Shown here piece after piece: positions 11,764 through 60,433 of a DNA stretch of 64,000 nucleotides. The notes under the pieces are model-generated. The model was not told the origin of the DNA and searched no databases. It was given only the letters and a program-made list of their open reading frames with translations. The translations under genes and the position numbers were made by a program. This DNA comes from an uncultured Bacteroidota bacterium (GTDB taxonomy: Bacteria > Bacteroidota > Bacteroidia > 2-12-FULL-35-15): assembly GCA_903847205.1 (NCBI GenBank), contig CAINDA010000058.1, positions 1 to 64,000 on the forward strand, in the 5' to 3' direction. Each line of letters starts with the position of its first letter. The first letter of the stretch is position 1.

Positions 11764-12041
11764 TTTTTTATTCATAAAAATCAGTTTCTCAGTCTTAAAA
11801 ATGTTTTTCTCGATCTTAAAAAGCGATTTTTCAATCGTGAAAGATAGTTTTTCAGCCCTGAAAAGCAGTTTCACAATCGTAAAAACGGTTTTCTCAACCT
11901 TAAAAATATTTTCTGGATCATAAAAGTGATTTTTTCAATCGTCAAAATGGTTTTTTCAATCTTGAAAAGTAGTTTCACAATTGAAAAAATCACTTTCACG
12001 ATCATAAAAAATATTTTTTCGAACAAAAAAACAGGTTTTTC
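11764..12041. repeat. Tandem array A, about 13 units of about 21 bp (T-tract type)
   Basis: Degenerate units of the form TTTTTC-AATC-T-AAAA. The C that ends each T-tract falls at about 11788, 11809, 11832, 11853, 11872, 11893, 11913, 11936, 11957, 11976, 11997, 12020 and 12041, a mean spacing of 21.1 bp. T-tracts and A-tracts alternate within each unit, so the DNA may be intrinsically curved. It is not in an ORF. It has the same period as arrays B, C and D but an unrelated consensus. Confidence 0.8.
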
Positions 12042-12062
12042 GATTGAAAAACCTGTTTTTTA
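12025..12062. terminator. Bidirectional terminator after the usher-like gene
   Basis: Arms ACAGGTTTTTC (12031-12041) and GAAAAACCTGT (12046-12056) with a 4-nt loop, preceded by A6 and followed by T6, so it can act on both strands. The last unit of array A forms its left arm. Confidence 0.85.
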
Positions 12063-30264: not shown

Positions 30265-30876
30265 TTAAATATTAATTGTTTCGGGAGCCGAAGCAATACC
30301 TACTTCTAAATCGTTAATAACAAGTACAACATAATACTGGCGCTGTTCGGCTGCATTGCCTGCCAGGTTGGGGCGGGTATCAATACTATGCGGATGAGTT
30401 ACATGTTTAAAATAAGTAAAGGCAGTTTCGTTACCGCGTTTGCTGTAAATATTACCGCCTTCGCAATATTCGAGTCCGAATTTAATATCAACGCCGGTTG
30501 GTACTGCGGCTAACTTAATTTTAGTTTTTACTGTAAGTGTATCAACAATAATTTCGCTTCCGATAATATCGAGCGCTTCACCAATAGTGGTAGAATACCC
30601 GCTGTTTTTTTTCATTGAAACTATAGCAGGCCTAAGCACCGCCATTTGAGTTTTTACAGTGTTATCGCGCTCGGCAACTTTTGCAACACCTGCTGTAAGT
30701 GCAGCATCGGCTTCATCAATTTTGTCGATCATTGCCTGGCAGGCATTCTGCAAGGCAGTGATTTGTAAGGGAGTTAATCCAAGTGCGGCACCATGCACTA
30801 AAATTAAGCCTTTGTAATTTACCAGCCAGAGACGCTGCCCGGCAATGTTTGTTGGGAAATATGGTTTGTGTTCCAT
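30265..30876 (-). CDS. Uncharacterised protein, paralogue of the gene at 42071
   Basis: 203 residues without a signal peptide. The N-terminus PYFPTNIAGQRLWLVNYKG and the central SGYSTTIGEALDIIGSE match PYMPTDDAGKKEWLGNFNS and SKYTDTIGLSLGIIGAD of the protein at 42071, so they form one family. Layout: a helical half (about 1-85), then a beta-rich half (about 115-203) that may be fibronectin-III-like. I know no function for this family. A 21-bp-period array (31105-31294) lies 229 bp upstream of its start, as also happens upstream of the paralogue. It is transcribed alone, with a strong terminator. Confidence 0.75.
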   Translation of the reverse strand: MEHKPYFPTNIAGQRLWLVNYKGLILVHGAALGLTPLQITALQNACQAMIDKIDEADAALTAGVAKVAERDNTVKTQMAVLRPAIVSMKKNSGYSTTIGEALDIIGSEIIVDTLTVKTKIKLAAVPTGVDIKFGLEYCEGGNIYSKRGNETAFTYFKHVTHPHSIDTRPNLAGNAAEQRQYYVVLVINDLEVGIASAPETINI

Positions 30877-31624
30877 TTGTTTTTTTAGGATTATTTGAAA
30901 TCCCTCGTCGAAATAAAAAAATATTTTTTTAAAACGCTAGTCATTTTTAATTTTATCGAACATTTAATTGCATTCAATGTAAAATCGCAGCGTTTCGTCA
31001 TATTATTTTATGATGTAACGATAATGGACTGCAAATAATTCAGCAATTTTTTAAAATATATGTCCTTTAGCAAATTTTTGACCGCCGAATTATAAAAGAA
31101 AACGAATGTTGGTTTTTAGTAAACAATTGTTGGTTTTAAGTAAACATGTGTTTACTTAAAGTAAACTTTCGTTTACTTTGAGTAAACGGTTCTCAAATTA
31201 AAAAAAACGGGAATATTACTTCAAGTAAACGGAAGTTTAATTGAAATAAACAAGTAAATGATGCCGGCAAACAATTGTTTATTAAAATCAAACAATTAAA
31301 TATTTTTATAATTCTCTCCACAGATTTTTAAAAACGGCCGTTTATTTTAAGCAGACAGCCATTTACCGGCATAATAAAAATGTTAAAAGAGGCCATACTG
31401 ATGATTTACTTTGTACAACAATTATTTGCTTTATTAATAAGTCACAGCAAGGCTTTTAATTCCCGGTTTTTTTCCAAAAAGTAAATATTAAATACTGTCT
31501 GATTTTAAAAATCCTTATTCTTTGAAAAAACACCTAATGCCAATTTGTCCAAATTTCTCCCTTGGCATAACGATTGAAACCCATCAGTATATTATTTTAT
31601 TTTTAAAACTAATTTTATTCCAAT
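30877..31624. other. 748-bp divergent intergenic region with array B
   Basis: Separates the minus-strand family gene from lon. It holds array B (31105-31294) and otherwise AT-rich sequence. No ORF and no RNA gene were recognised. Promoters for both flanking genes must lie here. I found no box I would defend. Confidence 0.5.
31105..31294. repeat. Tandem array B, 9 units of 21 bp (GTAAAC type)
   Basis: GTAAAC or a close variant starts at 31119, 31140, 31161, 31182, 31203, 31225, 31246, 31267 and 31288. The spacing is 21 bp throughout, except for one step of 22. Within a unit GTTTACTT is followed by AAGTAAAC, so individual units are near-palindromic. Units differ from each other at many positions between the boxes, so the phasing is better conserved than the sequence. 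Confidence 0.9.
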
Positions 31625-41349: not shown

Positions 41350-41634
41350 CGTTTTTAAAAATTAATCCCCGATAAAAGCAACATCCTGCCCTATTGCCTT
41401 ATAAAATACCCGCCTGATTTACCAAAACAACCGATTTCCTATTCTTTAATCATGTTTTTTTATGATCTAAATCATAAATTGCGATTTTTCTGAATTTATA
41501 GGCATATTTTATTATGTAAGTACGAATTAATTTTTACATTCGCATCCGATAAAAACAGGTTTTGATATGCTTACTATTGCACTTCATACTTCAAATATGG
41601 CTTATCTGCCAAAGCCTACAGCCTTTTTCAGCTT

Positions 41635-41888
41635 CATTTTACGCTGTGCTGAAATCATTTTACGCCGGGCAAAAATCATTTTATCCAAGCCTTCGGTGAT
41701 TTTATGCCGGGCTAAAATCATTTTACGCCGGGCTAAAATCATTTTATTCTTCGGAACCAGTCATTTTATCCCGGGCAAAAATCATTTTATCCCAGCCTTC
41801 AGCGATTTTATCCCGGGCAAAAATCATTTTACGCCGGCCTTCCGTGATTTTACGACGGGCAAAAATCATTTTATCACAGCATAAAATC
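41635..41888. repeat. Tandem array C, 12 units of 21 bp (ATTTTA type)
   Basis: ATTTTA starts at 41636, 41657, 41678, 41699, 41720, 41741, 41763, 41784, 41805, 41826, 41847 and 41868. All steps are 21 bp except one of 22. The common unit is CATTTTAYSCCGGGCAAAAAT, and several units have a variant half containing CCTTC. Unit junctions read AAAATCATTTTA, so they are near-palindromic. Same period as arrays A, B and D, with an unrelated consensus. Confidence 0.92.
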
Positions 41889-41970
41889 AATGGGCAATGA
41901 GCAATGGATAATTGGAAATGGATAATGGATAATGGATAATGGATAATTGACAATTAGCAATAAAACAATT

Positions 41971-42053
41971 CAACAATAAAGCAATAAAGCAATATAACAA
42001 TCCAACAATAAAGCAATAAAGCAATATAACAATCCAACAATAAATCAACAAAC
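41971..42053. repeat. Two exact 32-bp tandem copies plus a partial third
   Basis: Copies at 41971-42002 and 42003-42034 are identical (starting CAACAATAAAGCAATAAAGC). The partial third copy starts at 42035. It lies just upstream of the gene at 42071. Exact identity suggests recent slippage. Confidence 0.85.
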
Positions 42054-42070
42054 AAAAAAATCAAAACAAA

Positions 42071-42754
42071 ATGAAAAAAACACCTTACATGCCGACCGAC
42101 GATGCCGGCAAAAAAGAATGGCTTGGTAATTTTAACTCGAAATTTCCGGGAATTGCAGCCTTATTTAATTTCAGTGCTGCCGATGTTGCAGCCGTGAACG
42201 ATGCAACACTTGTGTATAATTATTTATGCGACTGCAGCACAATAATTATCAGCGCTAAAGAAAGTTTTGTGAATCATAAAAACTTAATCCGCAGCGGTAA
42301 AATTGGCAGTGCAACAGGCAGTCTGCCTACAGTGCCTGTGCTGCCGGCAGTTCCGGTAACTACAAACCCTGTAGGAGCAGGTATTTTCCCCACAATTGCA
42401 AAAATAGTTTCAACAATAAAAAGCAGCAGTAAGTACACCGATACTATCGGACTTTCTTTAGGCATCATAGGTGCCGACCAAACAAATGATATTAATGCCA
42501 TGAAACCAGTATTAACCCTTGTGCATTTGGCCGGGAAAATTGAAGTGCAATGGGTTAAAGGCAATGCACATTCAATACATATTGAAGTTGACAGAGGTAC
42601 AGGATTCCAGTTTTTAGCAATAGATTCGATACCGCATTATATCGATACTTTTGCCATAACAGTTCCCGCCGTCTGGAAATACCGCGCCATGTATATTATT
42701 GCCGATGAATTAGTAGGGCAATGGAGCGATGTGGCTACCACCAATGTTGGATAA
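42071..42754 (+). CDS. Uncharacterised protein, paralogue of the gene at 30265
   Basis: 227 residues without a signal peptide. It shares PYMPTDDAGKKEWL at the N-terminus and YTDTIGLSLGIIGAD in the middle with the protein at 30265. A helical first half is followed by a Pro/Val-rich linker (about 80-110). The C-terminal beta-rich part (about 150-227: GKIEVQWVKGNAHSIHIEVDRGTGFQFLAID) looks fibronectin-III-like. The function is unknown. The 5' region carries array C, parallel to array B before the paralogue. A strong terminator follows. Confidence 0.75.
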   Translation: MKKTPYMPTDDAGKKEWLGNFNSKFPGIAALFNFSAADVAAVNDATLVYNYLCDCSTIIISAKESFVNHKNLIRSGKIGSATGSLPTVPVLPAVPVTTNPVGAGIFPTIAKIVSTIKSSSKYTDTIGLSLGIIGADQTNDINAMKPVLTLVHLAGKIEVQWVKGNAHSIHIEVDRGTGFQFLAIDSIPHYIDTFAITVPAVWKYRAMYIIADELVGQWSDVATTNVG

Positions 42755-58406: not shown

Positions 58407-59729
58407 TTGAAAAAATCAGTTTCATTTCTGCTTTGTTTTTTATTCATTGCAATTGCATATTCCCAAAACATTGTCGATTCACTGCAGAGAGAAGGGGTTT
58501 CAATGCTTCAGCAGCAGCAGTTCGATAAAGCATTAGTAACTTTTAATAAGCTTATCAATCTGCAGCCATCTAATGCTGAAGCTTATTATAACAGAGGCAT
58601 TGTACACGCCAGCATGGGAAATATGGCCTTGGCTATTGCCGATTATTCTAAAACAATTGAACTCCTTCCTAAAAAAACAGAGGCTTATGTTAACAGGGGA
58701 TCGGCCTACAGCGGCTTAAAACAATACAAGCAGGCATTGGATGATTATAATAAAGCAATTGAATTAAATCCTAAAATTGCCGAAGTTTATAACAACCGCG
58801 GTTATTTGTACAGGCTTCAGAATAAGCCGGATGAAGCTATGAAAGATTTTGATAAAGCCATTGTCCTTAATCCAAAATACAGCAAGGCATATATCAATAA
58901 AGCTTTAGCAAACAGCGAGTCCGGCAAGCATAAGGAAGCTGTTGAAATACTCAGCACCCTTATCGGCCTGAACCCCAATTTTGCACCTGCCTATTTCAAC
59001 CGTGCGCTTGAATATACCCAGCTCGGCGATAAAAGAAATGCACTGAATGATTATGATAAAGGATTATCATTAGAGCCCGGCGATGTGCCTGCGCTTTATT
59101 CAAGGGCGCACATTAGAAGTGAATCAGGTGATAACCTCGGCGCTATTAAAGACGGTACTGCTTTGCTGAAACTTGACCCTAATAACGCCAAAGTTTTTTA
59201 TTTGCGCGCTGATGCCCAGTATAATTTAAAACATTATAAAGAAGCTGTGGATGACTATACCCATGCCGTGGAAAGCAAGCCTGAATATTGGGAAGCATTT
59301 ATTCATCGCGGCAACGCATTTGACATGATGGGAAAGTATGAAGATGCCCTCAAAGATTATTACAAAGCCACCGAACTGCACCCCGAAGCTGTGGAGAGTT
59401 ATGAGCAGAGAGCTGTTGCAAGACTTGCAAAAAATGATGTTACGGGTGCGCTTTCGGATTTGAGCAAGGCAATGAAAATTGCACCAAAGGATATAAAAAT
59501 AATTGAAAAAAGAGCCATATTATGGGCAGCCGTTAAAGATTATAAAACTGCAGCCGAAGATTATTCAAAAATATTAGAAATAGATGCTGCTAATATTCCG
59601 GCTCTTAACTCCCGCGGCGATTTATATGTAAAACTCAATAATAAAGAGCAGGCCTGCCTCGATTACCGCAAAGCCGAAGCTTTAGGCAGCGGTGCTGCTA
59701 TGAGTAAAAGGATATTTAATTGTAAATAA
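58407..59729 (+). CDS. Exported TPR protein
   Basis: 440 residues. The signal peptide ends AYSQ at about 20. The rest is about eleven to twelve consecutive tetratricopeptide repeats of 34 residues (for example AEAYYNRGIVHASMGNMALAIADYSKTIELLP and AEVYNNRGYLYRLQNKPDEAMKDFDKAIVLNP). TPRs bind other proteins. The partner is unknown, and the location would be periplasm or outer-membrane face. The start is TTG: an in-frame TAA lies immediately before it and there is no ATG before the signal peptide. Confidence 0.88.
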   Translation: MKKSVSFLLCFLFIAIAYSQNIVDSLQREGVSMLQQQQFDKALVTFNKLINLQPSNAEAYYNRGIVHASMGNMALAIADYSKTIELLPKKTEAYVNRGSAYSGLKQYKQALDDYNKAIELNPKIAEVYNNRGYLYRLQNKPDEAMKDFDKAIVLNPKYSKAYINKALANSESGKHKEAVEILSTLIGLNPNFAPAYFNRALEYTQLGDKRNALNDYDKGLSLEPGDVPALYSRAHIRSESGDNLGAIKDGTALLKLDPNNAKVFYLRADAQYNLKHYKEAVDDYTHAVESKPEYWEAFIHRGNAFDMMGKYEDALKDYYKATELHPEAVESYEQRAVARLAKNDVTGALSDLSKAMKIAPKDIKIIEKRAILWAAVKDYKTAAEDYSKILEIDAANIPALNSRGDLYVKLNNKEQACLDYRKAEALGSGAAMSKRIFNCK

Positions 59730-59743
59730 CGCTTTTACAAATC

Positions 59744-60313
59744 GTGTTTCCGCAGCGAACAGGGAAGATTCCGCAGCGAATAGGGAAGATTCCGCAGCGA
59801 ACAGAGAAGATTCCACAGCGAACAGGGAAGTTTCCGCAGCGAACAGGGAAGATTCCGCAGCGAACAGAGAAGATTCCACAGCGAATAGGGAAGATTCCGC
59901 AGCGAACAGGGAAGATTCCGCAGCGAACAGAGAAGATTCCACAGCGAACAGGGAAGTTTCCGCAGCGAACAGGGAAGATTCCGCAGCGAATAGGGAAGTT
60001 TCTGCAGCGAACATGTCTGATTCTGCAGCGAACAGGTCTGATTCCGCAGCGAACATGTCTGTTTCTGCAGCGAACATGCCCATTTGCTGCAACTGACCAA
60101 ATTTTATTGATAAACTCAGGCAATGGACAATTAAATTATTATTTAGGATTAACAAAAACTGCTGTTCCTGTAACCGGTTCGGTAGTTATCACACTTGCAC
60201 CTAACACCGAGCAGACAATTGCTGCCAGCGCCTTAGGCGATTTTGCAAATAATCATTATTTAATTGCGGCCAACCCCGATGCCAATTTAACAGTAGCATG
60301 GGATTTGATTTAG
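59744..60313 (+). CDS. Uncertain ORF: 21-bp array read as heptads, then a beta-rich C-terminus
   Basis: A 189-codon frame from GTG at 59744 runs through the whole of array D (as PQRTGKI heptads) and continues without a break into 70 residues that look like real protein. These include LLINSGNGQLNYYLGLTK, VVITLAPNTEQTI and NNHYLIAANPDANLTVAWDLI, alternating as in a beta-sandwich. A good terminator follows at 60342. The heptad part is probably not meaningful protein, because all frames through the array are open or nearly so. The last 70 codons may be the remnant of a gene whose 5' part has been replaced by the array. Confidence 0.4.
   Translation: MFPQRTGKIPQRIGKIPQRTEKIPQRTGKFPQRTGKIPQRTEKIPQRIGKIPQRTGKIPQRTEKIPQRTGKFPQRTGKIPQRIGKFLQRTCLILQRTGLIPQRTCLFLQRTCPFAATDQILLINSGNGQLNYYLGLTKTAVPVTGSVVITLAPNTEQTIAASALGDFANNHYLIAANPDANLTVAWDLI
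59746..60084. repeat. Tandem array D, 16 units of exactly 21 bp (CAGCGAA type)
   Basis: CAGCGAA starts at 59753, 59774, 59795, 59816, 59837, 59858, 59879, 59900, 59921, 59942, 59963, 59984, 60005, 60026, 60047 and 60068: sixteen units, no indel. The main unit is CCGCAGCGAACAGGGAAGATT. Variation is confined to a few sites (G/A in CCGCA, C/T in AACAG, G/A in AGGGA, A/T in AGATT) until the last four units, which carry ATGTCTG or AGGTCTG instead. The GC content is clearly above the surroundings. Confidence 0.95.
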
Positions 60314-60341
60314 AATGATGAAATTGATGTATTGATTTTAT

Positions 60342-60378
60342 AAATGCATCCCGAAATATTCGGGGCGCATTTGTTTTT
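60342..60378 (+). terminator. Hairpin terminator
   Basis: AAATGC-CCCGAA pairs with TTCGGGG-GCATTT (2-bp internal mismatch, 3-nt loop), then GTTTTT. It lies 28 bp after the ORF ending at 60313. Confidence 0.75.
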
Positions 60379-60433
60379 AATAAGATTATATTTGTGAGGT
60401 TAAATAATCAGCGGCCCTTTTAATTCCCATCAT

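Follow-up and report, generated by a model that had tools for sequence, protein, structure and literature searches.

A 21-bp tandem array beside a gene relic in a Bacteroidota genome, and the intergenic arrays of about two helix turns per unit to which it probably belongs

The locus considered here lies in a window of 64,000 nucleotides (the whole stretch of DNA that was analysed) from an uncultured Bacteroidota bacterium, and it raises the question of why a row of tandem units should keep its unit length so strictly whilst running in frame into what looks like the end of a protein. A first-pass annotation had described sixteen CAGCGAA boxes at a strict 21-bp spacing with no indel, in a plus frame that continues into a tail and then a terminator, and had called such length keeping expected if the array is translated or if structure constrains the unit length. 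The description is borne out by motif positions and by TRF: array D holds 16 exact matches to CAGCGAA (59753, 59774 and so on to 60068, all steps being 21 bp), and TRF reports 15.7 copies between 59748 and 60076 with 88% match, 0% indel and a score of 469, far exceeding what chance would give. The first box follows the stop codon of a TPR-repeat gene by 24 bp. An ORF scan also finds the plus frame open from a GTG at 59744 to a stop at 60313 (189 aa), with a 78-codon tail and, beyond it, a terminator-like hairpin (Table 1). The minus frame that reads FAAESSL across the array is open as well (59682-60155), as are two more minus frames, which is expected when the unit length (21 bp) divides by three, since a unit that is open once stays open.

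Table 1. Coordinates of the features discussed, as positions in the window
Feature	Position	Strand	Remarks
Array A	11775-12061		orphan, ~21-bp pitch
ORF downstream of array B	30265-30876	-	203 aa, family-2-like; grouped by position and C-terminal look only
Array B	31096-31251		~21-bp pitch, 5' of ORF 30265-30876 (-)
Array C	41634-41874		21/42-bp pitch, 5' of ORF 42071-42754 (+)
ORF downstream of array C	42071-42754	+	227 aa, family-2-like; grouped by position and C-terminal look only
TPR-repeat gene	58407-59729	+	ORF; Pfam TPR, E 6e-70
Array D	59753-60088	+	16 direct 21-bp units CAGCGAACAGGGAAGATTCCG; final four units of the edge type (CATGTCTG..)
Block duplication in array D	59782-59864	+	83 bp; exact second copy at 59908-59990, a shift of 6 units (126 bp)
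Relict 3' end of a ~320-aa family-1 gene	60081-60313	+	frame common with array D; 90% DNA identity to the intact paralogue L002
Intrinsic-terminator-like hairpin	60349-60365	+	came with the relic; L002 has the same hairpin

Array D and its tail

When the last 79 residues of the tail were used as a query, eight matching places were found in the same genome, self included. The best paralogue, L002 on contig C6, is an intact 320-aa protein (E 5e-41, 89% identity over the tail) at which TRF detects no array; six further paralogues were found, and other full-length homologues in this genome have 328-359 aa. Homologues with an intact N-terminus are thus present, in line with the first-pass annotation's suspicion that the tail is a remnant. 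At the DNA level, positions 60081-60413 match L002 over 334 columns, stop codon and terminator included, and this homology starts abruptly at 60081, where the last unit of array D ends. Of the nucleotide differences between the tail and its paralogue over 73 codons, 16 fall in synonymous codons against 7 in nonsynonymous codons, and the tail therefore derives from a gene that was once under selection. It keeps only the last 78 codons of that gene, the first three quarters being missing, including the intact N-terminal helical domain, and a 1-nt deletion alters its last residues. On this sequence comparison the tail is a gene relic, the end of a mostly deleted member of what we call family 1.

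The substitutions within the array allow the coding reading to be judged. That they have accumulated was noted previously, but their independence was overstated, given the exact 83-bp second copy inside the array, from which it follows that array D grew partly by recent block duplication. When its units were pooled with those of other loci (68 units, five loci), nonsynonymous changes were close to the neutral expectation in six of six frames, and a six-frame permutation test on these 68 units found no frame favouring synonymous changes with P below 0.17. Since zero-indel arrays with units of 20, 41, 83 and 125 bp exist, the reading frame is not the thing that is kept, and in the arrays related to D, where units are 20, 41, 62 or 83 bp long, a frame could not be preserved. 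Array D is non-coding and the coding reading fails; the frame that it has in common with the tail is a coincidence, with a chance of 1 in 3. Of the two explanations first offered for the strict length, a constraint on unit length still looks sound, whereas upkeep for translation is not supported, in view of the null-like nonsynonymous changes in six frames, the recurrence of D-type arrays without the tail (below) and the zero-indel arrays at 41, 20 and 83 bp.

It is very improbable that the locus is a real fusion gene, with translated heptads (QRTGKIP) and a beta domain at its end: the open 189-aa frame that joins array to tail would fit, as would purifying selection on the tail during its divergence from the paralogue (the 16 changes against 7), but no frame is under constraint, the paralogue proteins carry no repeat, array copies at other loci lack the tail, the 1-nt deletion shifts the frame near the tail's end, and chance alone joins such parts in frame once in three times. 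Array D serves as an example of how an in-frame repeat ORF can be a trap where each unit amounts to a whole number of codons.

Intergenic arrays at a pitch of about 21 bp

The D unit recurs in the same genome at C37:77086, C27:107, C15:107, C49:41466 and the end of C4, and a D-type array is found at no fewer than, that is at least, four further intergenic places, where each placed locus faces the 3' end of some gene and has no family-1 tail. The ends of C4, C27 and C15 have an identical 141-bp overlap inside the D-type array, and C4, which may continue C27 or C15, was not counted separately; contigs C5, C55, C63, C8 and C68 (L011-L016) break inside genes resembling family 2, described below. 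The assembly therefore collapses at repeats, and the copy numbers given are minimum values. The D-type loci have core and edge unit types in common, an indication that blocks of the array have been copied.

We surveyed 2.65 Mb of this genome for intergenic arrays with a minimum length of 80 bp and obtained 85, of which 80 have a period of 15-130 bp. In 63 of these 80 the period falls in a set that we denote ~21n (20, 21, 40-42, 62, 63, 83, 84, 104, 105, 123, 125 and 126 bp, or whole multiples of about 20.5-21 bp), where 12% would be expected (binomial P 2e-42, indicative only, as the set was picked after the data); among coding arrays the figure is 5 of 33. The apparent length keeping is inflated by the preference of TRF for indel-free arrays.

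Every unit consensus was reflected onto its own reverse complement, and two geometries are apparent. The arrays with 41/42-bp units have a two-fold symmetry over the whole unit (n=42, mean z 2.28, p 7e-10), with 21 of the 42 reaching P<=0.05, and these units can be read as alternating inverted half-units of ~21 bp, with two axes ~21 bp apart. Arrays of 20/21 bp are direct, the same test having found no symmetry among them (n=26, mean z 0.30, p 0.19), and array D belongs to this direct class; within its unit the dyad GGAAgaTTCC is not above chance.

The window also contains arrays A, B and C (Table 1), and an orphan copy of array C lies at C35:8492. Directly after array C, just before the start codon of the ORF at 42071, there is a second and unrelated array (AGCAATATAACAATCCAACAATAAAGCAATAA, 32/8 bp), both lying within 41634-42060. 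Orphan arrays outnumber those linked to genes (42 of 66 are orphan), and some have units in common with gene-linked arrays, as do those at C64:40966 and C64:82840 with the one at L021.

Array D, which lies between the stop codon of the TPR gene and the terminator of the family-1 relic, is probably a non-coding orphan of a dispersed group of intergenic arrays built from ~21-bp modules; the order of events at the locus we infer. Two reasons may underlie the constant unit length: arrays would grow and spread through the copying of whole units and blocks, as seen in D, and units off the ~21-bp pitch would be lost, as the genome-wide periods suggest. In the open-access papers searched we found no account of such 21/42-bp arrays, and a large set of arrays with units of about two helix turns in this bacterium has apparently gone undescribed so far. 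Array D itself is explained and the wider class is the more interesting subject, as dozens of intergenic arrays at a ~21-bp pitch, in two symmetry classes and with two uncharacterised protein families, turn DNA that would be labelled 'repeats' into a concrete and testable question.

Two protein families encoded beside the arrays

Family 1 consists mostly of proteins of 310-345 aa, for which no family match was found in Pfam, NCBIfam, PHROGs or PADLOC and whose structure is predicted (pLDDT 80) to start with a helical bundle and end with a beta domain. The family is multi-copy, with up to 13 matches per genome (fragments included) and around ten copies in this genome, and decayed copies are present. 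It is also patchy, occurring, besides this genome, in 11 of 98 relatives and in 2 other genomes among 395 sampled from the phylum. A profile from the full 28-row alignment gave no conserved stretch; a 9-row profile found 11 loci, almost all of them labelled as MAGs of Bacteroidetes or Chitinophagaceae. A phage or plasmid origin is unsupported, as no relatives were found in viral contigs or plasmids, and weak sequence matches in the PDB (EspA, E 0.03) are taken as chance. Foldseek/VIA comparisons of the family-1 model, which covered chiefly its C-terminal part, gave matches for the beta domain only. Residues 235-329 of the L017 protein, a predicted jelly-roll, resemble PirA (Z 9.9, 85 aligned, 2.6 A) and Bacillus endospore-appendage (Ena) subunits, with Z of 8-10, which we read in this model as a common fold only. 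The isoelectric points of family 1 are near neutral (about 6-8; 6.1-7.7), which is unusual for proteins that bind DNA, and the searches with either family yielded no DNA-binding fold.

At 23 of the 29 family-1 loci examined, a tandem array lies 37-278 bp upstream of the start codon, its basic unit being 41 or 42 bp. Only where the proteins are near-identical do two loci have related units; even family-1 proteins of 65% identity have unrelated arrays, and the sequence of an array changes far more quickly than that of the protein linked to it. In two pairs, array and gene have been duplicated jointly. The distant member L077 has a direct 21-bp array instead. In another Bacteroidia family, strongly palindromic arrays lie beside family-1 relatives (L076, 2302-2491, with a 41-bp unit and 93% reflection match, and L081, 2032-2225).

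Proteins of family 2 are shorter (~200-230 aa), with a helical N-terminal part and a C-terminal Fn3 domain that is the sole match in searches; their isoelectric points are mixed, from 6 to 10. The arrays linked to this family lie upstream in 14 cases and downstream in 2, three of the genes (two of them in the window) having been grouped by position and look and not by profile. Families 1 and 2 occur together in 7 genomes among the 98 relatives, with 11 and 15 genomes holding one or the other (p 1e-4), and the geometry of the arrays splits by the linked family, family 2 having mostly direct arrays and family 1 symmetric ones (Fisher p 1e-4).

What the arrays may do

Our preferred reading of these sequences, which we hold tentatively, is that the arrays may act as phased rows of protein-binding sites on double-stranded DNA. 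One subunit for every two turns would sit on the same face of the helix, all subunits pointing the same way in the direct 21-bp arrays and alternating in orientation along the 41/42-bp arrays, and a fixed two-turn pitch in both geometries would most readily be explained by something that acts on double-stranded DNA. Candidate binders are the proteins encoded beside gene-linked arrays (families 1 and 2), each on its own upstream array, and these might also act on orphan copies; array D, beside a dead gene, would then be either a leftover or a target in trans. Against phased binding counts the far faster divergence of the arrays, with which recognition by the protein would have to be loose or fast-evolving. 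The near-neutral family 1 and the lack of a DNA-binding fold in the searches count against it too, as does boxA before some arrays, which points to a role for RNA. A fuller version, in which a hitherto undescribed Bacteroidota system of families of small proteins, apparently without enzymatic activity and each made of a helical bundle and a beta domain, encoded beside their own direct or alternating two-turn arrays, would assemble there and on orphans into helically phased nucleoprotein structures, we regard as unlikely on present evidence. If binding is shown, this would be a new kind of gene-linked DNA array.

There are two serious rivals to phased binding. The arrays could be selfish or neutral repeat DNA that expands by slippage and gene conversion and is copied into intergenic gaps, the ~21-bp pitch coming from the amplification machinery, which seems to us rather doubtful. 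It would accommodate the excess of orphans over linked arrays, the recent block duplication in D, the decayed family-1 copies and the edge and core types common to D-type loci, as copying predicts, but it leaves unexplained why, across many genomes, arrays are placed immediately 5' of genes from two protein families, the split of geometry by protein family and the inward orientation of boxA.

The other rival is that the arrays act as RNA, being transcribed into extended leaders or 3' UTRs that stay untranslated, are rich in hairpins in the 41/42-bp class, and regulate or position the adjacent transcript, whilst boxA keeps the polymerase going. The motif GTTCTTTGA lies 94-177 bp upstream of 16S rRNA in 12 of 14 relatives' loci, as expected of boxA, which has been reported upstream of CRISPR arrays and rRNA (PMC7862264). 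A count over the 100-bp flanks of arrays (178 flanks) gave 8 occurrences pointing inward and 0 outward, with 0.36 expected, the inward count being 7 without a duplicate pair and 6 if C48, whose array units carry the motif themselves, is set aside as well; it is also present at other places. An inward boxA before seven independent arrays therefore suggests that some arrays are probably transcribed. An RNA role would suit these inward-only motifs at array ends, the occurrence of boxA reported before CRISPR arrays and rRNA, and the position of D between a stop codon and a terminator. We nevertheless consider it improbable, since hairpins require no constant 21-bp pitch, symmetry is missing from direct arrays like D, D has no boxA, an Rfam search gave no match, and the family-1 arrays have no excess of sense-strand stability (there is no strand bias, the antisense being more stable in about 15 of 26). 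A consensus Bacteroidetes promoter was not enriched before arrays or before start codons.

To return to phased binding, the iteron arrays of plasmid replication and partition loci are direct repeats of ~20-22 bp, or two helical turns, upstream of the gene for their own binder. The direct arrays described here likewise have repeats that span about two helical turns and precede a gene, with a protein that is here only a candidate for binding, but the arrays lie on chromosomal-assembly contigs, with around ten family-1 copies that have unrelated units, and the searches made with the linked proteins gave no match to Rep or Par families. A second comparison is with REP/BIME elements and TnpA_REP (RAYT), the 'REPtrons', which are short extragenic palindromic repeats (PMC2817692, PMC8266576). 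These likewise comprise extragenic repeats of 20-40 bp in several sequence types, some beside a dedicated gene and others scattered as orphans. Unlike them, the proteins linked to arrays here are no HuH tyrosine (Y1) transposases, family 1, which has no Pfam, NCBIfam or PHROG match, being a predicted helical bundle with a beta domain and family 2 matching Fn3 only, and the repeats form long head-to-tail arrays at a fixed ~21-bp pitch; a palindromic unit is absent from the 20/21-bp arrays, D included, whilst the 41/42-bp arrays are palindromic on average. Intergenic tandem repeats are known in bacteria, for example in lake Planctomycetota (PMC9426551), and are similarly non-coding and head-to-tail, growing and shrinking via duplication and deletion, but that description is without a fixed ~21n-bp pitch, two symmetry classes or two linked protein families. 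CRISPR arrays with boxA leaders (PMC7862264) are also long untranslated repeats after boxA; in contrast, the repeats here, including those of array D, are contiguous and alike over the entire unit, with no unique spacers. In the family-1 array of L017 and L018, a boxA core (GCGTTCTTTGACC) lies inside several of the repeat units.
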